Source: Flavobacteriales bacterium (GTDB lineage: Bacteria; Bacteroidota; Bacteroidia; CAIKAF01). From it: 48,468 bases of DNA. The notes beneath the pieces were generated by a model, which worked only from the letters and a program-made list of their open reading frames with translations, was not told the origin of the DNA and made no database searches. How positions within the stretch are numbered: the stretch's first letter is position 1; each line of letters opens with the position of its first letter. This document shows, in pieces, positions 26,861 through 39,937 of the stretch. A program made the translations under genes and the position numbers. The DNA is taken from positions 1 to 48,468 of the forward strand of contig JANWWP010000013.1 in assembly GCA_025055575.1 (NCBI GenBank), in the 5' to 3' direction.

Positions 26861-28395
26861 TGTTTGAAATGTCGGAAGCCCGTGAACACCATGGCCAACC
26901 CCAAACGGTCACAAGCTTCCACGGAATCCTGATCGCGGACGGAGCCACCGGGCTGGATGATGGCCTGAACACCCGCAGCGGCAGCGCGCTCCACGCTGTC
27001 AGGAAAAGGGAAAAAGGCTTCCGAGGCCAGGACAGCGCCCTGAACATTTAGTCCCGCTTCGCGGGCTTTTGCGAGGGCATGGTGCAAGGCATCTATCCGG
27101 GAGGTGTGGCCTGTCCCTACGCCTATCATCTGACCTTCGCGCACCAGAACGATGGCATTGGAACGGGTGTGGCGCACCACTTTCCAAGCCATCATGAGGT
27201 CTTGCCATTGCCCGGGATCGGGGTGCTTTTGGGTGACCACCCGGCCCTCTTCCTGGCGCAATGGCACGTGGTCCCTCTCTTGGATTAAAAAACCATGCAG
27301 GGCAGATCGCACCTGAAGGCGGGGCCTTTGAAAGGCTTTATGGCGCAGCAAAATACGCTGACTTTTTTTGCGCAACAGCGCGTAGGCTTCCGGCTCAAAG
27401 TCGGGCGCGCTGACGGCCTCGAAGAAAAAATCTTTCAGCTTTTCGGCCACATGGATAGTCACGGGTTTATTGCTCAAAAAAATCCCCCCAAAAGCGGATT
27501 TCTCGTCCGCCTTCAAAGCTTTTTCGAAAGCGATGTCCGGGTTGGAATTCACAGCCAGTCCGCAGGGGTTGTTGTGTTTGATAATCACCCAGGCCGGCTC
27601 ATGAAATTCTTCCAGGAAAGCAAGGCCGTTATCCAGGTCTAAGAGATTATTGTAAGACAATTCTTTTCCCCCCAGTTGTTCGAAGATCTCGTTCAAATGG
27701 CCTGCAAACCAACCTTTTTGATGCGGGTTTTCTCCGTAGCGGAGCGGCATCATGGATTCCGGCGAAATGCCTTGAAGTCCGGTGTTGTCGGGATGATCCT
27801 CACGGTCCAGCCATCGGTAAATGGCGTTGTCGTAAAGGGAAGTTCTCAGAAAAGCCCGACGGGCCATGTGTTTTCTTTCTTCCCTTGTGGTGTAGGGGCG
27901 CTGGCGCAGAATAGCCTCAAGAAAGGGCACTTCATGGCGCGAAGGGATCACCAACACTTCTTCAAAATTTTTTGCCGCGGCGCGAATCAGGGCGATTCCT
28001 CCGATGTCTATTTTTTCAATAACCTCAGGCTCCGGGGCCCCGCTTTGCATGGTTTCCTCAAAGGGATATAAATCCACCAGCACCAGGTCAATCCAGGGAA
28101 TCTCCATTCGTTGAAGAGTTTGGATGTCCTCCGGTTGATTCCGGCGGCCCAGGATACCTCCAAATATAGCGGGGTGCAAGGTTTTCACCCTGCCGCCCAG
28201 GATGGAGGGGAAGCCCGTGAGAGATTCCACTTCCTGCACCGGGTAGCCTTGCCCCCTGATCCAATCTGCCGTGCCGCCGGTGCTGAGAATTTCTATGCCG
28301 TGCTGGTGCAGCAATTCAAGAGTCTCTTCCAGGCCCTCTTTGTGGTACAAGGAAATAAGGGCGCGTTGCAGCGTGCGTTGTCCGGATGGCTTCAT
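26857..28395 (-). CDS. purH: Bifunctional AICAR transformylase / IMP cyclohydrolase
   Basis: 512 residues from ATG 28395, which overlaps the stop of the upstream gene by 4 bp (ATGA); a TTG two codons earlier is less likely. The N-terminal IMP cyclohydrolase domain shows IEILSTGGTADWI, GFPSILGGRVKTLHPAIFGG and VDLYPFEETM. The transformylase domain carries MPLRYGENPHQKGWF, IIKHNNPCGLAVN and FFPFPDSVERAA. It catalyses the last two steps of de novo IMP synthesis: formyl transfer to AICAR, then ring closure. Length and motifs are complete. The transcript is shared with the cystathionine beta-synthase-like gene. Confidence 0.97.
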   Translation of the reverse strand: MKPSGQRTLQRALISLYHKEGLEETLELLHQHGIEILSTGGTADWIRGQGYPVQEVESLTGFPSILGGRVKTLHPAIFGGILGRRNQPEDIQTLQRMEIPWIDLVLVDLYPFEETMQSGAPEPEVIEKIDIGGIALIRAAAKNFEEVLVIPSRHEVPFLEAILRQRPYTTREERKHMARRAFLRTSLYDNAIYRWLDREDHPDNTGLQGISPESMMPLRYGENPHQKGWFAGHLNEIFEQLGGKELSYNNLLDLDNGLAFLEEFHEPAWVIIKHNNPCGLAVNSNPDIAFEKALKADEKSAFGGIFLSNKPVTIHVAEKLKDFFFEAVSAPDFEPEAYALLRKKSQRILLRHKAFQRPRLQVRSALHGFLIQERDHVPLRQEEGRVVTQKHPDPGQWQDLMMAWKVVRHTRSNAIVLVREGQMIGVGTGHTSRIDALHHALAKAREAGLNVQGAVLASEAFFPFPDSVERAAAAGVQAIIQPGGSVRDQDSVEACDRLGLAMVFTGFRHFKH

Positions 28396-29756
28396 GCGCA
28401 AAGATTACCGATGATGTCTTCTTTTGTGATGATATGGTAGGCGCCGCTGAGGAATTTCACCAGAACCGCCGCATGGCCCTGCCGCATGAGTGCAGCCACA
28501 TTTTCCAGAGTTTCCTTTTCGTCCACCATGGGGAAGGGCGCTTCCTGGGCTTCGTGACAGGGACTTTCAGGTGTTAAATGGCCCTCCACGAGGCCTTGTA
28601 AGATGCGGCTGTCCGATAAGGCACCTGTAAATTGATTGCCTTCTTTTACGGGGATCTGGGAGATGCCCAACTTCTTCATGAGGTAAATGGCATCTTTCAG
28701 TGGCTGATCCGGACGCACTGTCACCAGAGGCTTATCGGCATGCGGGCGCACCAGGTCCCGTGCCCGGGGTTGGGTGGTTTCCAGGAAGCCCCGGTCGCGC
28801 ATCCAGTCGTCATTGAACATTTTACCCAAATAACGTATCCCGTGATCATGAAAAATGACCACCACCAGGTCCTCCGGTCCAAACATGTGTTTCATCTGAC
28901 GCAGCCCAGCCATGGCAGCGCCTGCAGAATTTCCAGCGAATATTCCTTCCTGGCGGGCAATTTCCCGGGTCATAAGGGCGGCATCCTTATCGGTCACCTT
29001 TTCAAAATGGTCAATGATATCAAAATCCACATTGGCGGGCAGGAAATCCTCACCAATGCCTTCGGTGATGTAGGGGTAAATTTCGTTTTTATCAAAAATG
29101 CCGGTTTCCTTATATTTTTTAAAAACCGATCCGTAAGTGTCAATTCCCAAAACGCGGATCCGGGGATTTTTTTCCTTCAGATACCGGCCCGCACCGCAAA
29201 TGGTGCCACCGGTGCCCACGCCCACCACCAAATGGGTGACGCGGCCCCCGGTTTGCTCCCATATTTCAGGGCCTGTGCTCTCATAGTGGGCTTGGCTGTT
29301 GGAAGGGTTGTCGTACTGGTTGGCCTTCCAGGCGTTGGGTATTTCAGTGGCCAGGCGGCTGCTCACGCTGTAGTAGGAACGGGGGTCTTCGGGCTCCACA
29401 TCGGTGGGACACACGATCACCTCCGCACCGAAGGCCTTGAGAGCATCTATTTTTTCTTTGCTTTGCTTATCTGTGGTGGTGAAAATGCATTTATAACCTT
29501 TCACCACGGCCGCTATGGCTAAGCCCATTCCGGTGTTGCCGCTGGTGCCTTCCACGATGGTGTAACCTGGCTTTAAGAGGCCGGCTTTTTCGGCATCTTC
29601 AATCATTTTGACAGCCATCCGGTCTTTAATGCTGTTGCCGGGATTGAAAGTCTCCACTTTGGCGGCCACCGTACAGGGGAAATCGGCGCACAGGCGGTTG
29701 ATGCGTACCAGCGGCGTGTGGCCAATGGTTTCCAGAATATTGTTTTTTATGTCCAT
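28392..29756 (-). CDS. Cystathionine beta-synthase-like PLP enzyme with CBS domain pair
   Basis: 454 residues from ATG 29756 (MDIKNNILETIGHTPLVRIN), a typical start for the family. The PLP lysine is Lys44 in NPGNSIKDRMAV; the phosphate loop is EGTSGNTGMGLA, with GVGTGGTICGAG downstream. The catalytic core covers about residues 1-320. A pair of CBS domains follows (about 335-454; SDSRILQGLVEG, AYHIITKEDIIGNL), which in eukaryotic CBS bind S-adenosylmethionine or nucleotides. It probably condenses serine (or O-acetylserine) with homocysteine or sulfide. The CBS pair favours cystathionine beta-synthase over plain cysteine synthase. Coupled to purH by ATGA. Confidence 0.92.
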   Translation of the reverse strand: MDIKNNILETIGHTPLVRINRLCADFPCTVAAKVETFNPGNSIKDRMAVKMIEDAEKAGLLKPGYTIVEGTSGNTGMGLAIAAVVKGYKCIFTTTDKQSKEKIDALKAFGAEVIVCPTDVEPEDPRSYYSVSSRLATEIPNAWKANQYDNPSNSQAHYESTGPEIWEQTGGRVTHLVVGVGTGGTICGAGRYLKEKNPRIRVLGIDTYGSVFKKYKETGIFDKNEIYPYITEGIGEDFLPANVDFDIIDHFEKVTDKDAALMTREIARQEGIFAGNSAGAAMAGLRQMKHMFGPEDLVVVIFHDHGIRYLGKMFNDDWMRDRGFLETTQPRARDLVRPHADKPLVTVRPDQPLKDAIYLMKKLGISQIPVKEGNQFTGALSDSRILQGLVEGHLTPESPCHEAQEAPFPMVDEKETLENVAALMRQGHAAVLVKFLSGAYHIITKEDIIGNLCA

Positions 29757-29786
29757 GTGCAGGGCAAATTTCCGCAATTCAGGGCA

Positions 29787-30296
29787 TCATTCCTCTATGT
29801 GCCGTCGGGTTTTAAATGGCGCCGGCCAGGTTACATTCACCCAGGCCGGATCAAACTGCACATCCAGATCATCATAGAACGCTATGGCTTCGGTGTTCCA
29901 GTCCAGCACTTGCCACTGGATGACCCCACAGCCGGCGGCACGGGATTCGTCCACCACTTTTTCCAAAAGACGGCGGCCCAGACCCCGGCCCCGCCAGGCG
30001 GGTTCCACGTACAAATCTTCCAGAAAAAGGCTTTTTCCACGCCAAGTGGAATACCTGTAGTATACTACGGCCATCCCAATGGCCGTGCCTTGATACCAGG
30101 CCAGCCAGGCTTTGAAGAGAGGCCTCGGGCCGAAACCGTCAGCCAGCATTTGATCTATCGAATTGGTAACCGCTTCCGGAGCCTTTTCAAAAGCCGCCAG
30201 TTGTCGTATCAATTCCAGAAGGGCCGGCATATCTTCCGGTCGCGCATCCCGAATATCAACTTCAGAAATTTCCAATTGGGAACCTGGAACATCCAT
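29787..30296 (-). CDS. GNAT-family N-acetyltransferase
   Basis: 169 residues from ATG 30296; the frame stays open upstream, but that part is the HU terminator region. Core motifs: VDIRDARPEDMPALLELIRQ at the start, LFLEDLYVEPAWRGRGLGRR (motif A, acetyl-CoA pyrophosphate loop RGRGLG) and WNTEAIAFYDDL (motif B). The layout resembles spermidine/diamine or thialysine acetyltransferases, but the acceptor is not provable. It transfers acetyl from acetyl-CoA to an amine. It lies between HU and the CBS-like gene, 30 bp upstream of the latter. Confidence 0.88.
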   Translation of the reverse strand: MDVPGSQLEISEVDIRDARPEDMPALLELIRQLAAFEKAPEAVTNSIDQMLADGFGPRPLFKAWLAWYQGTAIGMAVVYYRYSTWRGKSLFLEDLYVEPAWRGRGLGRRLLEKVVDESRAAGCGVIQWQVLDWNTEAIAFYDDLDVQFDPAWVNVTWPAPFKTRRHIEE

Positions 30297-30386
30297 AACA
30301 ATTTCAGATGAAATAAACCTTGGGCGTTTGCTTGTGTGCAGTTCTAAAAATACGCCCGTTCTCGGTAAAAAAAGCCAAAAAAAGAG

Positions 30387-30411
30387 AAAAAAAAAGCCCC
30401 ATGAATGGGGC
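30387..30411 (-). terminator. Rho-independent terminator of the HU gene
   Basis: On the minus strand: 7-bp stem GCCCCAT / ATGGGGC with a 2-nt loop, then nine T residues. It follows the HU stop codon by about 20 bp and separates HU from the GNAT gene. Confidence 0.88.
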
Positions 30412-30432
30412 CTGTTCTGTCTCAAATGATCT

Positions 30433-30708
30433 TTACTTACCTAAGCCGCTGGACAATTCAGCGCCGGCCTTGAAACGCACCACCTTTTTGGCGGGGATTT
30501 TGATTTCCTTGCCGGTTTGGGGGTTGCGACCGGTGCGGGCGCTGCGCTTGGTGACGCTAAAAGAGCCGAAACCAACCAGAGATACGCGATCGCCTTTTTT
30601 GAGCGCGCCGTGCACGGCGGAGGTGAAGGCGTCGAGGGCTTTCTTGCAGTCAGCCTTGCTGAGCCCGGAACCCTGGGCCATGGCATCGATGAGTTCTGCT
30701 TTGTTCAT
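30433..30708 (-). CDS. HU-family histone-like DNA-binding protein
   Basis: 91 residues, the normal HU length, from ATG 30708. Helical N-terminus MNKAELIDAMAQGSGLSKAD, then the signature RVSLVGFGSFSVTKR and the DNA-binding arm RTGRNPQTGKEIKIPA, including the Pro that intercalates in DNA. It bends and compacts DNA as a dimer. A distinct terminator follows, so it is monocistronic. A possible -7 element TGCATTTG lies on the minus strand at 30734-30741, one base off consensus. Confidence 0.96.
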   Translation of the reverse strand: MNKAELIDAMAQGSGLSKADCKKALDAFTSAVHGALKKGDRVSLVGFGSFSVTKRSARTGRNPQTGKEIKIPAKKVVRFKAGAELSSGLGK

Positions 30709-30974
30709 AGTGTTTTGATTTTGATGGGTTAAACAAATGCAAGACAAATGTGAAACAGATTTTTCAAAATGTGCAAGGGGTGTAGCGTAAAAAATCGAAT
30801 TTTTGTTAATAAAATCGCGGGTTTTGTTGAAAACCACGCCAAAAACCCCTGAATTTTCAAGCTTTTACAAGATTTTTTTTCCGGGTTTCCTTAAAGAATA
30901 AAGAGAAAAGTCAGGGAAAAATTCCGGGGCCTTGATGTTGGAATGGTTACCAGAAGCCCAAGAAGTTGGGAGTG

Positions 30975-31049
30975 TGGACTGCACCGGATTCGAACCGATG
31001 ACCTCTGCCCTGTCAAGGCAGCGCTCTGAACCTACTGAGCTAGCAGTCC
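30975..31049 (-). tRNA. tRNA-Val (anticodon GAC)
   Basis: On the minus strand, 75 nt including discriminator A. Acceptor GGACTGC / GCAGTCC pairs fully (7 bp). D stem GCTC / GAGC. Anticodon stem CTGCC / GGCAG with loop TTGACAG, anticodon GAC at positions 34-36, reading GUC/GUU (Val). T arm ATCGG TTCGAAT CCGGT. The 3' CCA is not encoded. Confidence 0.95.
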
Positions 31050-31059
31050 GGGAACAGGA

Positions 31060-31067
31060 CAAAAATA
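31060..31067 (-). promoter_or_regulatory. -7 promoter element TATTTTTG for tRNA-Val
   Basis: An exact TAnnTTTG match on the minus strand, 10 bp upstream of the tRNA 5' end and inside the 29-bp gap after the preceding gene. A -33 element is not obvious, so cotranscription with the upstream operon is also possible. Confidence 0.5.
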
Positions 31068-31078
31068 GCGAAAAGCCT

Positions 31079-31900
31079 TTAATCTTCCGGCCAGGCCCAG
31101 GAATGTGCGATGCCTCCGGCTTTATACAGACACAACAGCCACAAAGCCAGCACCGTGGGATGCTCGTGGGCGGCGGCACAGTCTTCCTGTAATGGGTCCC
31201 ACCGGTACAGCCCACCCGGGCAACGTACTTTTTCTAAAACTGTTAAGACATCCGGCAGTGTCTGCCTTGAATCAGACATCCAACACAGCGCCAGGGTCCC
31301 TTCCATCCAAGAGTCACTGCCAGGCTGGATAGTAATAAGCTTTTCCCGAATTCTGGGGGCCGCTTTTGTGCACCAAGGTTCCTCTATGCAAGGGATGGGA
31401 CGGGTTTTAAAAGAGCGGGCCCATGCACACGCTAAGGCGATATGAGCAAGGTGGCGTACATATCCTTCCGGGTTTAACCCCATGGTATCCTTGAAAGTTT
31501 CCTGCAATAGCCGGCAAAAAGGCAGAGAGTCCGGATAGAGACCGGCCAACATCAGGCTTTCCAGAGCGATGGCAGCGGGGGCGTCGGGGTGGGAGAGGGG
31601 GCGCAGCGGGACGAAGCTTTTATCGTGCAATTTTTGATAATACGGGAAAAGACGGCGGTCGTCGTCAAAAACCAGGGCAATCTTAAGTATTGATTCCAAC
31701 TCCACATTTGTCATATTGAGATATCGCCGGCCGAGGTAGTGTACAATCTCCCTTAAATTGTAGGATTTGTAAAACTCAGGATGGGATTTAAAGTGTTGGA
31801 GGGTTTCATTCAACAACCGCTCAGCCCGCACAGAATCGTTATTCTGAGCATAGCCGGACAAAAAAAAACATAAGCAAATTGGAATGAGAAATAGTTTCAT
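31079..31900 (-). CDS. Exported protein of unknown function
   Basis: 273 residues with a clear signal peptide (LFLIPICLCFFLSGYAQ). The mature part is mainly helical with several Cys and Trp residues (CAWARSFKTRPIPCIEEPWC; GGLYRWDPLQEDCAAAHEHP). A helical-repeat or terpenoid-cyclase-like fold is conceivable from the spacing of Trp and Gly, but no known family is recognised. It is third in the coupled operon: its ATG overlaps the stop of the FISUMP-type gene (ATGA at 31897-31900). Probably periplasmic or on the outer membrane. Confidence 0.7.
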   Translation of the reverse strand: MKLFLIPICLCFFLSGYAQNNDSVRAERLLNETLQHFKSHPEFYKSYNLREIVHYLGRRYLNMTNVELESILKIALVFDDDRRLFPYYQKLHDKSFVPLRPLSHPDAPAAIALESLMLAGLYPDSLPFCRLLQETFKDTMGLNPEGYVRHLAHIALACAWARSFKTRPIPCIEEPWCTKAAPRIREKLITIQPGSDSWMEGTLALCWMSDSRQTLPDVLTVLEKVRCPGGLYRWDPLQEDCAAAHEHPTVLALWLLCLYKAGGIAHSWAWPED

Positions 31901-32901
31901 TGGACGCAGCGCACGGCGGCCCCCACTTTCCGGGCTTCCTCCGGGACCAACAAATAACCAGAGGGCCGGGGACTGGCGAAAAAATTTTTATTTTTTTCCC
32001 ACGTAGATGACCAATACAATCCGGCCATGCCTTCCCCCACAAGGTTTTTTACTTCGGCGGAATACATATTGTTCAAGGAAAAACCCAGGCCTATATTATT
32101 ATCCTGCGGGGTCTCAAGCAAAGGCTTCAAATTGTCCTCAAACGGCGCCAACAAGGCGTACCACTCTTTTTCGCTCGGGAGGCGCCAGGAGGGAGGACAG
32201 GGATTTTGACCGGCTTTGAGGGTCACAATGTCCGGCCTTGTAGGCAAGGGGCGTTGAACCCCTTCGGAAGCAGTCCAATCTTGGGCCATCCAACGCAGCG
32301 CCCCGACCTGACGATAAATAATTCCTGTGGTGGAATCTTTCCTGACTGGAGAAAACTTCAGAGGAAAACGGTTCTTAAGCTTCAACGTGAAGGGTTCTCC
32401 TTCTCCGCAGGAAGTGATGCAATAAATTTGAACATCCAATGTTTCGGAAGGTATCGGCCTGGAGGCCTGAAGAATAATGGAATCTCCCCGGTTTCCAGAA
32501 AATTCCAGGGAGGTATCTTGGGTTTTAATCAGAATTTTTTCACATTTTCCATCTGTTTCGGGAAATAACACATAGTATTTTCCGCGGTCGGCTACATTCA
32601 TCTTTTTCACAATTCCCGGGCGGGGCAGGCAAGTGCCACACAGTTCATGCCAATGACCTTTGAGATAATAATTCAGGCAGCCCGTGGTGGAATTGAAGAC
32701 CCAATAACCATCAGCCGGTTTTTCAATAGCCTCAATGTCAGCCTGGGAAAGAATTTGTGGTGTTTCTTTATGATCTTTAGCAGGATGCAGGATATTTTGG
32801 CAAAAAGAGATGGATTGTAAATGACATCCAAATAAAAGAAATGAAAATAGTATAGTGCTTCTTTCTTTCAAGATCTCAAAAACAGCTTTTATTGCTATCA
32901 A
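31897..32901 (-). CDS. FISUMP-type protein, possible lipoprotein
   Basis: 334 residues. The N-terminus has a hydrophobic stretch ending LFSFLLFGC, which could be a lipobox with Cys26, so an outer-membrane lipoprotein is possible. The C-terminal third carries the FISUMP pattern (Fibrobacter succinogenes major paralogous domain): PCPPSWRLPSEKEWYALL, GLYWSSTWEK and a final AAVRCVQ. This fold is related to the C-type-lectin-like/formylglycine-enzyme group seen in many surface proteins. The middle part is beta-rich with Cys pairs (LCGTCLP, CITSCGEG). Overlaps both neighbours by ATGA, so three genes are translated as one unit. Molecular role unknown. Confidence 0.75.
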   Translation of the reverse strand: MIAIKAVFEILKERSTILFSFLLFGCHLQSISFCQNILHPAKDHKETPQILSQADIEAIEKPADGYWVFNSTTGCLNYYLKGHWHELCGTCLPRPGIVKKMNVADRGKYYVLFPETDGKCEKILIKTQDTSLEFSGNRGDSIILQASRPIPSETLDVQIYCITSCGEGEPFTLKLKNRFPLKFSPVRKDSTTGIIYRQVGALRWMAQDWTASEGVQRPLPTRPDIVTLKAGQNPCPPSWRLPSEKEWYALLAPFEDNLKPLLETPQDNNIGLGFSLNNMYSAEVKNLVGEGMAGLYWSSTWEKNKNFFASPRPSGYLLVPEEARKVGAAVRCVQ

Positions 32902-35180
32902 GGATTCACACTACCCAATACAGTTCCGCCTATATTGGTGAGGGATGATCCACTCCCGTTTCCTTGTAAGGCTAATCCTGCACCACCGCCCGGAGCCCCG
33001 CCAGGACAACCAGCTGGGGAACTTGGAGAACTGCCCCCTGAACTTCCAGCTACGCCATTGACGCCGCCTGCCCCGCCCGCTTGGGCATTTTGTCCATTAC
33101 ATGTGCCAGGACAACCTGTCGTGCCAGAGTTAGCTCCACCGCCACCAGCACCTCCTGTGGTAGCAGTTCCCGGCGAACCGGCGGCACTTGTGGCATTTCT
33201 ACTGCATGTCCAGCAAACCGTTCCTTGGATACAACTTGAAGTTTGACCAGGACCTCCTGATCCAGGGGGTGTTCCTGCACCACCACCGCCCCCACCACTC
33301 GCAGCACAACAACCTGCCCCACCGCCGCCACCTCCTCCTCCACCAGCCCGAATAGTTCCATAATTAAAAACCCTGATTGGCACAATTGAATTCGTCTGGA
33401 TAGCATGCCCGCCAGTTCCGCCAGCTTGAGGACAAATATCTCCCGCACACACACCATCCGACTCCCTGCTTCCATGCCCACCATTGCCTCCTCCCGCTAA
33501 AATCGTCCCATAATTGTATAGGACTATTCTGGCCCCGTTCGGCATGGTGCTGGCATCAAAACCTGGATTTCCGGCTACGCCGGAGCCGCCACCATTGTTG
33601 GCAGCCTGAAGCGTGACGCCTGAATTAATCCACACGCAATATCTGCGTGCCCTTGCTCCTCCTAAGGCAGAATTCAGATTATAACCCGTCTGGTTGGAAG
33701 AGATCACAACTACCTCTTCACACCATTCGCACAGGCTGTTCCAGAATCCGTTGCCCCCATTGGGTGTGGCCTTCGTGTCCCAAAATTGGAAGCAATCGTC
33801 GTCTGTGTTGTAGATCATGAGCCCTTCATTCAGAGTATTACCCATGGCATCGCGTTGGGCACGGGTCATGCGGGGTATCAAGACCCCTTTAGAGGTTGAG
33901 GTAAGGTCAAGAATGGCCCGGGATGGCGGGGCACCTGCATTCCCCGTACCTGAAATTTCCGCATTTATTTGAATACCCCCGCCGTTGCCGGGATCAATAG
34001 CCATGATGGCGTTGGTGCCGGCGCTGTTGCCCCCGCCCTGGTCAGTGAAAAACTTGATGGGGGCGGCGTTGCTGGCAATACGAATCCAGTGGCCGCTGAT
34101 CTGGGAATAGAGCCCCAGGTCGCTGGTGACGTTGATTTCCGTCGTGCCGCGCTGGATTACGCCGTTCTGCACCGCCATGCGGCCGTTGACATCCAGCAGT
34201 TGCACGGGTGTGGTGGTGCCGATACCCACCCGGCCGGCGGCCGTAAACCGCACCCTATCCGTGGTGCCGCTGCGGAACTGCAGGAAGCCGGTGGCATAGT
34301 CTATGTAGGAATCTGTGCCGGTCTGGTGCAGACGGAGGCGGTCGTTCACGTCGGCCGTGTTGCCGATCCACAAGCTGTTACCGGAGGGCATGAAAATGCT
34401 GCCTTCCACATTGAGCGTTGTAAAGCCGCTGGTGGGCGCCGTGAAAGTGTTATCCCCAGCTCCATAGAGCAGGGTCTGGTTGTTGCCCCGGATGTCCATC
34501 AGCCTTTGAGTGCCTCCATAGAAGCGGTGCTGGTAAGCGGAGGTGGCGGCTGGAAGGCTGTGCCACAGCGTGCTTCCCTCTATGCCTGTGGCGTAATCCA
34601 CTTCGGTCCCCGACAGTTGGGGAAACCATACCGCTTTGGTACCGGCGCTGCGGGTACCCGTGCTGGGCGCCGCCACACCGTTGGTGTTGTAGAGAATAAG
34701 ATTGCTGGCCGTGCCCGCCAATCGCAGTTCCGTCTGGGTGGTGCCGGCCCCAGAAAAGCGGGCGCGCTCGGTGTTGTTGGTACGGAACACAAGATCCTGC
34801 GCATCGGTGGTGCCTAAAAAGTGGGTCGCGGGCGAGGTGCCCGCATTCCCCGTGAGCCGCCAGTCGCCGCTGTTGCTGTTATCCAGTCGGGTCCAGGCGC
34901 TGCCGGTCCAGAAATAAAAGCCGGTGCCGTTGCCCCCGGTCACGGAGGCGTTGGTATTGTACACGAGGAGGCCGGTGGCCGGGGAGGTGATGGGCGAGGC
35001 CGAGTTCACGTTGCTCAAATTCACCCTAGGCACCAAAACCCCTTTGTCGTTGGATTTGACATCCAGCAGGGCGGATGCGTCCGGGGACGATCCATCCGTA
35101 TTGATGCCAACGCCCTGGGCTTTGATTTTAAAGGCTGCGACAGTTAGGAGAAAAAGGAGAAAAAATTTTTTCATCGCCAT
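32898..35180 (-). CDS. Tail-fibre-like exported protein with Gly/Cys-rich C-terminal domain
   Basis: 760 residues (MAMKK start; MKK two codons later is equally possible) with a signal peptide (LLFLLTVAAFKIKAQ). The mature start GVGINTDGSSPDASALLDVK and repeats such as VGIGTTTPVQLLDVNGRMAV are typical of Bacteroidota proteins resembling phage tail fibres. A second LDLTSTSKGVLIPRMTRAQR block lies at about residue 425. From about 540 the sequence turns to NYGTILAGGGNGGHG and NYGTIRAGGGGGGGGG, then a 150-residue Gly-rich stretch with Cys clusters (GCCAAS, CIQGTVCWTC). No T9SS sorting domain is seen, so the export route past the periplasm is unclear. First gene of an ATGA-coupled operon. Confidence 0.8.
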   Translation of the reverse strand: MAMKKFFLLFLLTVAAFKIKAQGVGINTDGSSPDASALLDVKSNDKGVLVPRVNLSNVNSASPITSPATGLLVYNTNASVTGGNGTGFYFWTGSAWTRLDNSNSGDWRLTGNAGTSPATHFLGTTDAQDLVFRTNNTERARFSGAGTTQTELRLAGTASNLILYNTNGVAAPSTGTRSAGTKAVWFPQLSGTEVDYATGIEGSTLWHSLPAATSAYQHRFYGGTQRLMDIRGNNQTLLYGAGDNTFTAPTSGFTTLNVEGSIFMPSGNSLWIGNTADVNDRLRLHQTGTDSYIDYATGFLQFRSGTTDRVRFTAAGRVGIGTTTPVQLLDVNGRMAVQNGVIQRGTTEINVTSDLGLYSQISGHWIRIASNAAPIKFFTDQGGGNSAGTNAIMAIDPGNGGGIQINAEISGTGNAGAPPSRAILDLTSTSKGVLIPRMTRAQRDAMGNTLNEGLMIYNTDDDCFQFWDTKATPNGGNGFWNSLCEWCEEVVVISSNQTGYNLNSALGGARARRYCVWINSGVTLQAANNGGGSGVAGNPGFDASTMPNGARIVLYNYGTILAGGGNGGHGSRESDGVCAGDICPQAGGTGGHAIQTNSIVPIRVFNYGTIRAGGGGGGGGGAGCCAASGGGGGGAGTPPGSGGPGQTSSCIQGTVCWTCSRNATSAAGSPGTATTGGAGGGGANSGTTGCPGTCNGQNAQAGGAGGVNGVAGSSGGSSPSSPAGCPGGAPGGGAGLALQGNGSGSSLTNIGGTVLGSVNP

Positions 35181-35189
35181 TAATTAAGA

Positions 35190-35219
35190 CAAATTTAATC
35201 TTAATGTCCGTAAGACAAA
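35190..35219 (-). promoter_or_regulatory. Consensus promoter of the tail-fibre-like operon
   Basis: On the minus strand: -33 TTTG (35216-35219), an 18-bp spacer and -7 TAAATTTG (35190-35197), all fitting the Bacteroidota consensus. The -7 element ends 9 bp before the ATG, so the leader is very short. The octamer AAGACAAA occurs twice here, covering both elements. Confidence 0.75.
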
Positions 35220-35301
35220 CAAGGGTTTGAAAAATTTATGCGAAAGCCTCTCCATTCAACACCCTCCCAGGTGTATTCGGCATGGGAAGTTGGGACAAGC
35301 C

Positions 35302-36291
35302 TCACACCAGATCGTGGGGACAGTACCCCTGCCTTTCCCAGTCGCTCAGGTTTTGAAGGGTGGTACGAGCTATGGCCTGCAGCGCCTCACGGGTGAGAAA
35401 AGCCTGGTGGGCCGTCATCAGCACGCGGGGATGGCGGCGCAGTTGTTCAAAGATCGCATCACCTGTTTCGCGGCCCCGCCAGTCGTAGAAATACAATCCT
35501 TTTTCTTTTTCATATACATCCAAACCTGCCGCTTCCACAATACCATTTTCCAAAGCTTCCAGCAAATGAGCGGAATGCACGATGCCGCCGCGCGCTGTGT
35601 TCAGAAAAATAAGACCGGGTTTCATGGCTTTGAAAACGTCGCGATGGATGATGTATCGGGTCTCCGCGTTGAGAGGACAGAAACACGCCAAAATGTCGCT
35701 GGAGGCCACCATATCCAGAAGAGGCAGGTATAGCAAACCAGTTTCTTTTTTCAATCGTTCGTTTTCGTGAATATCGCAGCCCAGAAGTCGGCAGCCAAAG
35801 CCTTTCATGATACGGGAAAAGGCTGATCCAATGAGGCCGGTACCGAGAATCCCCACCGTTTTACCGTGGACGTCAAAGCCCACCAGCTCGTCCAGCCGGA
35901 AGTCATTAGCCATAAAAAGCTCACGGGCGCGCAGGAGGCGCCGGTTCAGGGCCATCAGCAAGGCCACGGTATGCTCGGCCACGGAAAAGGGCGAATAATG
36001 AGGCACGCGGGCCACGCGCAACCCCAAACTTCGGGCTGCCTGGAGGTCCACGTGGTCATAACCGGCCGAACGTAAGGCAATAAACTGAACGCCTTCCTTA
36101 GCCAGGATTTCGAGTACAGGGCCATCGGCCTGGTCGGATGTGAAAAGCGCCACAGCCTTAAAGCCCCGGGCAAGAGAGGCGGTTTCTGGACGCAAAGCTT
36201 CTTCTGTGAAAACCAGTTCATGGCGACCTGCCGCTTCCGCTTCCAAATAGGGCTTGTCAAAACCGTGTACGCTGTACACCAGGGTCTTCAT
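35302..36291 (-). CDS. D-2-hydroxyacid dehydrogenase (D-lactate dehydrogenase type)
   Basis: 329 residues from ATG 36291 (MKTLVYSVHGFDK); an in-frame TTG two codons earlier is less likely. NAD-binding Rossmann motif GILGTGLIGSAFSRI (GxGxxG). Catalytic Arg in LNTARGGIV and catalytic His in LMTAHQAFLT; substrate-binding IALRSAGYDHVDL. The set fits D-lactate dehydrogenase (LdhA-like), which reduces pyruvate to D-lactate, but other 2-oxoacids are possible. It lies 31 bp downstream of trmD on the same strand. Confidence 0.9.
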   Translation of the reverse strand: MKTLVYSVHGFDKPYLEAEAAGRHELVFTEEALRPETASLARGFKAVALFTSDQADGPVLEILAKEGVQFIALRSAGYDHVDLQAARSLGLRVARVPHYSPFSVAEHTVALLMALNRRLLRARELFMANDFRLDELVGFDVHGKTVGILGTGLIGSAFSRIMKGFGCRLLGCDIHENERLKKETGLLYLPLLDMVASSDILACFCPLNAETRYIIHRDVFKAMKPGLIFLNTARGGIVHSAHLLEALENGIVEAAGLDVYEKEKGLYFYDWRGRETGDAIFEQLRRHPRVLMTAHQAFLTREALQAIARTTLQNLSDWERQGYCPHDLV

Positions 36292-36322
36292 GAGCAAAGG
36301 AAGTTTCTTTTTCGGTGTGTTT

Positions 36323-37102
36323 TCAGTCCGAAGGATCAGGAATTTTTGGATGGCTCAACCCGCGCTGAGGGCGCTGCAGTCCTTCATGGGCTCCCGACTC
36401 CGGTTCCGGGAGAAAAACCCAGGAAGAACTCTCCGCTTGGTGCTCCAAATACTGGCGGGTGCGCAGTTCGGCCATTTGGAGGCGCCAGGCCTCCACTTTT
36501 TTGGGGTCGCCGGAGCGCAATTCGGATGGAACGCGCATGCCACGCCAAATTTCTGGCCGTGTGTACACAGGAGGCGCCAAAAGACCATCCTGAAAAGAAT
36601 CGGTGAGGGCCGACATTTCGTCACCTAACACACCAGGTAAAAGGCGGACGATGGAATCCGTCATCACAGCCGCCGCCAACTCCCCTCCGGTGAGCACGTA
36701 AGGCCCAAGGCTGATAACCTGCGTGGCATAGGTTTCTACCACGCGCTGATCTATGCCTTTGTAATGACCGCAGACCAATACTAAATGCTTTTTCAGAGAA
36801 AATGCATTGGCAGATTTTTGGTGCCAGGGTTGGCCTTCCGGGCCAAAAAAGAGGATTTCATCCGGCTTGCCGTCTTTTAATATGGTATCCAGGGCCGCGG
36901 CCACCGGTTCACAACGGATCACCATGCCTCCTCCGCCGCCGTATGGATAATCATCAATCTGCCGATATCGGCCCAGCCCGTAATCGTGCAAATTGTGCAG
37001 ACGCACCGTGACGCAGCCCGCTTTTTGGGCCCGGCCCAGAATGCTGTGGTCCAGAAAACTCCGGAGCAGGTCTGGCACGGCTGCAATGATGTCAATTTCC
37101 AC
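36323..37102 (-). CDS. trmD: tRNA (guanine-N1-)-methyltransferase
   Basis: 259 residues from GTG 37102, giving the family-typical MEIDIIAAVPDLL start; an ATG at 37123 would add seven residues. SPOUT trefoil-knot motifs: QIDDYPYGGGGGMVIRCEPV, LVLVCGHYKGIDQRV, and SLGPYVLTGGELAAAVMTDS followed by RLLPGVLG. The enzyme methylates G37 of tRNAs with S-adenosylmethionine and prevents +1 frameshifting; it is normally essential. The usual rpsP-rimM-trmD-rplS neighbours are absent, so the gene is separated from its common operon. The last 25 residues or so look like a variable tail. Confidence 0.96.
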   Translation of the reverse strand: MEIDIIAAVPDLLRSFLDHSILGRAQKAGCVTVRLHNLHDYGLGRYRQIDDYPYGGGGGMVIRCEPVAAALDTILKDGKPDEILFFGPEGQPWHQKSANAFSLKKHLVLVCGHYKGIDQRVVETYATQVISLGPYVLTGGELAAAVMTDSIVRLLPGVLGDEMSALTDSFQDGLLAPPVYTRPEIWRGMRVPSELRSGDPKKVEAWRLQMAELRTRQYLEHQAESSSWVFLPEPESGAHEGLQRPQRGLSHPKIPDPSD

Positions 37103-37255
37103 CTCCCACAAAATTATGAACACTTGGTTTGGCCATCTATTTCCTCATCTTTTCACACATTTTAGTTTTTTGAATCAAGGGGATCCATTCTTCTCTTTAA
37201 AAGTTAGAGATTGGAGTAAAGATGATGATCCTCTAGAAAAAATATTATTGGAAAA

Positions 37256-37284
37256 TTGTTTTTAAAAAATAATTATTATCTTTG
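37256..37284 (+). promoter_or_regulatory. Promoter of the Fur/katG operon with overlapping palindromic operator
   Basis: -33 TTG at 37256-37258, an 18-bp spacer and a consensus -7 TATCTTTG at 37277-37284. The perfect palindrome AATAATTATT (37268-37277) touches the -7 element and resembles the core of PerR/Fur boxes. A repressor bound there would block the polymerase, consistent with autoregulation. Confidence 0.7.
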
Positions 37285-37304
37285 CCGAAAATTTTTCAGA
37301 CTCC

Positions 37305-39937
<2,633 letters not shown>

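Follow-up and report, generated by a model that had tools for sequence, protein, structure and literature searches.

The receptor-binding tip of T2-type phages is gp38. Mounted on the gp37 trimer, it recognises the host receptor through loops that a polyglycine-II (PGII) sandwich holds in place (PMC12892980). The Fib_succ_major (FISUMP) domain resembles DUF1566, and both domains are known from DGR targets that have a C-type-lectin fold, phages included (PMC4159848, PMC8143477). Among cell-encoded surface proteins, the mycobacterial PE_PGRS proteins have been proposed to form PGII sandwiches (PMC9436101, PMC7830552). The gp38 fold is known from phages, which choose their hosts with it. Its occurrence on Sec-exported proteins of non-phage chromosomal operons in more than one Bacteroidia family would mean that this recognition part also serves cells.

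Here we describe a locus of three genes, g1, g2 and g3, in a stretch of 48,468 nucleotides from a Flavobacteriales bacterium (the window, meaning the whole stretch of DNA analysed; its genome is G000). With moderate confidence, we read this locus as an operon encoding a surface adhesin made by the cell itself, with a phage-type tip, a lectin-like partner and g3 as an accessory; adhesion and the formation of a complex by the three products would follow from this reading. What is new is a gp38-like fibre that is cellular, exported and fused to its stalk, and whose operon also encodes a FISUMP partner; no paper describing such an operon was found in a literature search whose coverage did not extend to subscription papers. 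If true, the reading provides a testable set of partners (FISUMP, the helical g3 and a DUF4412-like protein) for a gp38-type tip, and FISUMP proteins gain a role in a defined complex.

Layout, expression signals and export of the three-gene locus

Three consecutive minus-strand ORFs span positions 35180-31079 with overlapping ends. The gene g1 (32898..35180, minus strand) encodes a tail-fibre-like, exported protein of 760 aa made up of a signal peptide, a repetitive stalk, a neck and a Gly/Cys-rich tip. It is followed by g2 (31897..32901, minus strand), which has a TTG start and encodes a 334-aa exported FISUMP protein, and by g3 (31079..31900, minus strand), whose 273-aa product is exported, all-helical and part of a family that has not been characterised. 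All three products begin with Sec-type signal sequences, as judged by eye, in agreement with the row of three exported ORFs described in a first-pass annotation of this DNA. The g1 signal peptide, also identified by eye (MAMKKFFLLFLLTVAAFKIKA followed by Q; 35118..35180, minus strand), has no lipobox, and translation may start at the second ATG.

The same annotation had reported ATGA at both junctions. This was correct for g2/g3 (31897..31900, minus strand, read from the sequence), whereas at the g1/g2 junction the TGA stop of g1 is overlapped by the TTG start of g2, giving TTGA (32898..32901, minus strand). Such stop-start overlaps would couple translation, so that the parts would be made together, and we infer that g1, g2 and g3 are co-translated in a fixed ratio. 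The consensus promoter with a very short leader that had been proposed was found as a perfect match to the Bacteroidetes pattern TTTG-N-TAnnTTTG upstream of g1 (TTTG-N18-TAAATTTG; 35190..35219, minus strand), 9-10 bases before the g1 ATG, a pattern for which 0.93 matches are expected by chance across the whole 48 kb window. The limit of 35219 previously assigned to the locus corresponds to the end of this promoter, g1 itself ending at 35180. Scanning the region for sigma-70 promoters gave no useful information, as is to be expected in Bacteroidetes. Directly downstream of g3 lies tRNA-Val(gac) (30974..31049, minus strand), which marks the same chromosomal site in a genome of the same genus (G001), and an HU gene is also located downstream.

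It had also been stated that none of the proteins has a T9SS signal. An NCBIfam search indeed revealed no T9SS tail in g1-g3 at E<=0.1; elsewhere in the window genome, 88 matches to TIGR04183 were found. The possibility that g1-g3 are T9SS cargo was rejected, as none of them matched a C-terminal sorting domain. Without such a tail, all three might remain periplasmic; their exposure at the surface is presumed.

The g1 tip and its predicted fold

The tip of g1 (32901..33731, minus strand; 277 aa, residues 484-760) is Gly-rich, contains 13 Cys and has a predicted gp38 fold according to AlphaFold2, Foldseek, BFVD and PHROG comparisons. The AlphaFold2 model of these last 277 residues, obtained from an alignment of the window tip with six relatives from named contigs, reached a pLDDT of 86.8 and a pTM of 0.83. 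Its only significant PDB matches in Foldseek were three phage gp38 chains, all with probability 1.00, corresponding to PP01 gp38 (9v85; E 1.7e-7 and 2.9e-6) and S16 gp38 (6f45; E 4e-5), with moderate TM-scores (0.44-0.58); the next PDB match appeared at E 1.2. Sixteen BFVD viral models also matched the tip at E<=0.001 (best 2.7e-13), and those with names include tail fibres and Gp38 proteins.

Sequence profiles gave matches of modest strength, to be read in the knowledge that Gly-rich sequence can inflate such scores: phrog_11439 (tail fiber protein) matched four of eight tips, with E values down to 1.3e-5, and phrog_2056 (tail fiber; host specificity) matched three of the eight, with E values down to 1.4e-5. 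There was no match of g1 to Pfam GP38 (PF05268), and a PDB sequence profile search with the tip returned nothing. Since phage tblastn with the tip gave one weak match only (E 0.3) and a scan of viral contigs no confirmed relative, it is profiles and fold, and not close sequence similarity, that link the tip to phages. The models provide good support for the prediction that the tip is a PGII sandwich of the phage gp38 type. The initial description of a tail-fibre-like protein with a Gly/Cys tip was thus borne out beyond what its reader knew. By analogy with gp38, receptor binding would fall to the loops that connect the glycine helices, and g1 would be a Sec-exported tail-fibre-like stalk, presumably trimeric, ending in a gp38-type recognition tip.

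A parallel module was observed on another contig of the window genome (C19; L099:4483-6732), and also in L100, L101 and L102. It consists of a tail-fibre-like protein of ~500-534 aa with a Gly-rich, gp38-like tip and, 11-18 bases downstream, an exported DUF4412-like protein of ~200 aa. The paralogous tip on contig C19 matches phrog_11439 at E 5.7e-14 and Pfam GP38 at E 3.9e-4 (20.8 vs a cut-off of 25). In G001 the parallel fibre (L103) has no evident partner. If g1 belongs to a recognition device of the cell, as proposed below, a second, parallel module of this kind in the same lineage would make such devices a general type of surface system. A prophage tail module was also found in G589, from another lineage of the same phylum (L105:2-9093). 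It comprises a tape measure, an 821-aa gp38-tipped fibre (phrog_11439, E 4e-133), an endolysin and a downstream 177-aa Lcl_C/FISUMP-like protein, and represents a phage counterpart of the pairing of fibre and lectin.

The existence of this prophage, in which an Lcl/FISUMP-like protein follows a gp38-like fibre, and the fact that the fold predicted for the tip is a phage fold are what would be expected if g1 were the leftover tail fibre of a prophage or tailocin, with g2 and g3 as neighbouring phage genes. The genomic context largely refutes this interpretation. Nine of the ten other neighbours tested match families, every one of housekeeping type (purH, a cystathionine synthase-like PLP/CBS enzyme, GNAT, HU, 2-hydroxyacid dehydrogenase, TrmD, Fur, peroxidase and polyphosphate kinase), and no phage structural genes adjoin g1-g2-g3 among the neighbouring genes checked at the window locus and at the loci of its relatives. 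Moreover, the module lies among housekeeping genes in other genomes too, all three products bear signal peptides, a host-type promoter precedes g1, and the viral contigs yielded no confirmed relative of the tip. We consider a prophage or tailocin remnant very improbable.

The number of cysteines in the g1 tips (11-15) exceeds that in the last 280 residues of the prophage fibre and of the cellular paralogues (one), and several tip cysteines are invariant among relatives. So many conserved cysteines fit an exported, oxidised extracytoplasmic domain. They could also form disulfides and, in proteins that carry no T9SS tail, this might indicate a periplasmic or outer-membrane structural scaffold instead of an adhesin, the tip being a rigid cross-linked knob for envelope stability. 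The gp38 fold, known as a receptor-binding domain, and the use of the FISUMP/DUF1566 fold as a variable binding surface speak against such a role, and we judge it quite unlikely.

The partners of g1

The neck of g1 (PRMT.AQRDA...GL.IYNT..C..F.....GFWNSLC..C; 33720..33887, minus strand), located just before the tip, has a homologous counterpart at the start of mature g2 (probability 97.6 in hhalign, E 3.3e-12), in which the common neck module, delimited by hhalign, occupies positions 32629..32763 (minus strand). On sequence grounds, two different heads, the g1 tip and the FISUMP domain of g2, are mounted on one type of neck.

The C-terminal FISUMP (Fib_succ_major) domain of g2 (31900..32214, minus strand) was detected by Pfam at E 1.6e-5, below the gathering score (PF09603, 25.7 bits vs a cut-off of 33.9); the NCBIfam model TIGR02145 also scored below its cut-off (28.4 vs 41.65 bits). 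The homologues of g2 in G003 (35.6 bits) and G130 (50.7 bits) exceed the Pfam gathering score of 33.9. The lectin/FISUMP-like domain noticed at first pass is real, though the window copy scores below threshold, and g2 is a divergent FISUMP protein, predicted to be C-type-lectin-like. A PDB sequence profile search with g2 returned nothing. The proposal that g2 is a lipoprotein was rejected, as the lipobox LLFGC occurs in the window g2 only and is not conserved in any of four homologues (G003, G062, G057 and G130). A role of g2 as a DGR variable protein was rejected as well: there was no RVT_1 match in the window genome and no direct repeat of >=40 bases in positions 28000-38000 of the window, so that there is no sign of a DGR in G000. 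The g2 protein would be a second, stalkless recognition subunit, formed by a neck of the g1 type and a C-type-lectin-like FISUMP head, and we propose that both this head and the g1 tip bind ligands.

The third protein had been said to match no known family. This holds within Pfam, PHROGs and NCBIfam; a two-row g3 profile, however, revealed relatives in 13 genomes of the class, with at least 11 homologues, and the family has the motif GGY.LTHA ... D..IEA ... DGSW ... HTT.LALWALLE. A peptide-pattern search for g3 in the genome contigs found nothing. The structural model of g3 is all-helical, with 13 helices, and poor (pLDDT 59.7). With this model, Foldseek gave no PDB match at E<=0.001, and the top matches (GH105, C3d and C4; E 0.14-0.7) include alpha/alpha toroids. 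Over a short QW-like segment, the C-terminal DGSW motif matched squalene-hopene cyclase (E 0.013). An alpha/alpha toroid is probably the fold of g3, and is taken as a lead only.

Most relatives of g3 stand alone, away from g1. Two such solo relatives are located near giant exported proteins (L078:4822-9828 and L083:5066-11001) that are 41-43% identical to each other, and in L078 the g3 gene ends 13 bases upstream of the giant protein. The g3 family may therefore serve other large surface proteins too. In the operon described here, g3 might perhaps be an exported accessory that would help to assemble, anchor or process the fibre.

Distribution of the module and comparison with known systems

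Nine genomes of the class, the window's own included, strongly matched a two-row profile of the g1 tip; phylum-wide scans revealed no strong tip or g3 matches besides the window itself. The gene order is conserved beyond one strain, a check suggested at first pass, since the three-gene set is found in two other families, and G003 and G130 keep g1 next to g2. In G062 and G243, which belong to one genus of another family, the order is that of the window (g1-g2-g3), and in G057, from a third family, it is g1-g3-g2. In this last genome the TTG start of g3 overlaps the g1 stop (TTGA), the same CCTTGATAG arrangement as after g1 in the window, and the ATG start of g2 overlaps the g3 stop (ATGA). G003, from the window's family, and G130 contain g1-g2 only, with g3 absent anywhere in both genomes. 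In G062 and G003, g2 follows g1 after a short gap, with no overlap, and in G177 g1 is alone. A contig end truncates the tip in both G187 and G243; the assembly of G187, a genus-mate of G057, breaks inside the g1 tip (contig C1, L073:1-398), and neither FISUMP nor g3 was found elsewhere in that genome. The claim of strict coupling goes too far: the overlaps are kept in G057, but G003 and G130 lack g3, G057 has the swapped order, short gaps follow g1 in G062 and G003, and g1 occurs alone in G001 and G177.

In G001, g1 is placed directly before the same tRNA-Val/HU pair, from which it is separated by ~147 bases on the tRNA side, and neither g2 nor g3 left any trace. When this locus (L074:1-1603) was compared with positions 30433-35180 of the window, the chromosomal site was the same and the tip belonged to a different clade. 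The neck and tip tree splits with full support into a clade with the window, G003, G062 and G057, all of which have g2 following, and a clade with G001, G130 and G177. The placement of the window and its genus-mate G001 in different tip clades suggests replacement, transfer or cassette exchange at the site. The absence of g2 and g3 beside g1 in G001 and G177 indicates that g1 need not depend on them.

A PF09603 scan revealed a single FISUMP gene in G000, G057, G062, G243 and G130, each time beside the tip gene, three in G003, one of them beside the tip gene, and none in G001, G177 and G187. Given a few thousand genes per genome, we estimate the odds of one such adjacency at roughly one in a thousand, and the adjacency spans several separate families, with G062 and G243 counted as one genus. 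It could be argued that the tip gene is real, but that g2 and g3 are independent exported proteins travelling with g1 by chance or shared transfer, as g3 homologues mostly stand alone, both genes are missing beside g1 in G001 and G177, and the order differs in G057. However, the single-copy FISUMP genes adjoining the tip gene in several families, the overlapping junctions kept despite the swapped order in G057 and the common neck suggest that g1 and g2 are functionally linked, and we find a loose collection of genes unlikely. The link of g3 to g1, seen in three lineages, is weaker than that of g2.

Our preferred reading is that of an operon for a surface adhesin. It can be extended, as a tentative possibility, to the proposal that uncultured Bacteroidia took a phage receptor-binding tip as a dedicated, exported, multi-part cell recognition device, in which a fibre with a disulfide-rich gp38-type tip and a second, lectin-like head that shares its neck, both exported without a T9SS tail, would be directed at other bacteria or surfaces.

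Among known systems, PE_PGRS proteins differ from g1 in export domain and lineage, and we know of no fibre stalk and no FISUMP or helical partner in them. FISUMP proteins (PF09603, TIGR02145) are represented by g2 and its homologues, which carry the domain C-terminally; g2 differs from the curated ones in being divergent, in having a fibre-type neck and a middle domain before the FISUMP domain, and in the lack of a DGR in the genome. The stalk and neck of g1, of the GL.IYNT / VGIGT.TP type, presumably resemble those of exported 'tail fiber domain' proteins of Bacteroidetes with T9SS tails, to which there are neck-like matches, whereas g1 has no such tail and ends in a gp38-like tip. With the phrog_11439 tail fibre family, such as the L105 prophage protein, g1 shares a tip that matches the same profile, and the g1 tip profile in turn picks up the prophage tip; outside the tip, the phage protein differs from g1 in having no signal-bearing stalk, and its last 280 residues hold one Cys. 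The gp37-gp38 tip of T2-type phages (S16, PP01; PF05268) is like g1 in its PGII sandwich, predicted in g1, at the fibre end. In g1, the tip is fused to the stalk in one chain instead of being a separate chain docked on a gp37 trimer, and it comes with a Sec signal peptide, 11-15 Cys and a cell operon without phage genes. Even though g1 stays short of the Pfam GP38 cut-off and has neither the separate-chain layout nor the phage context, it would work like a phage gp38-type adhesin.
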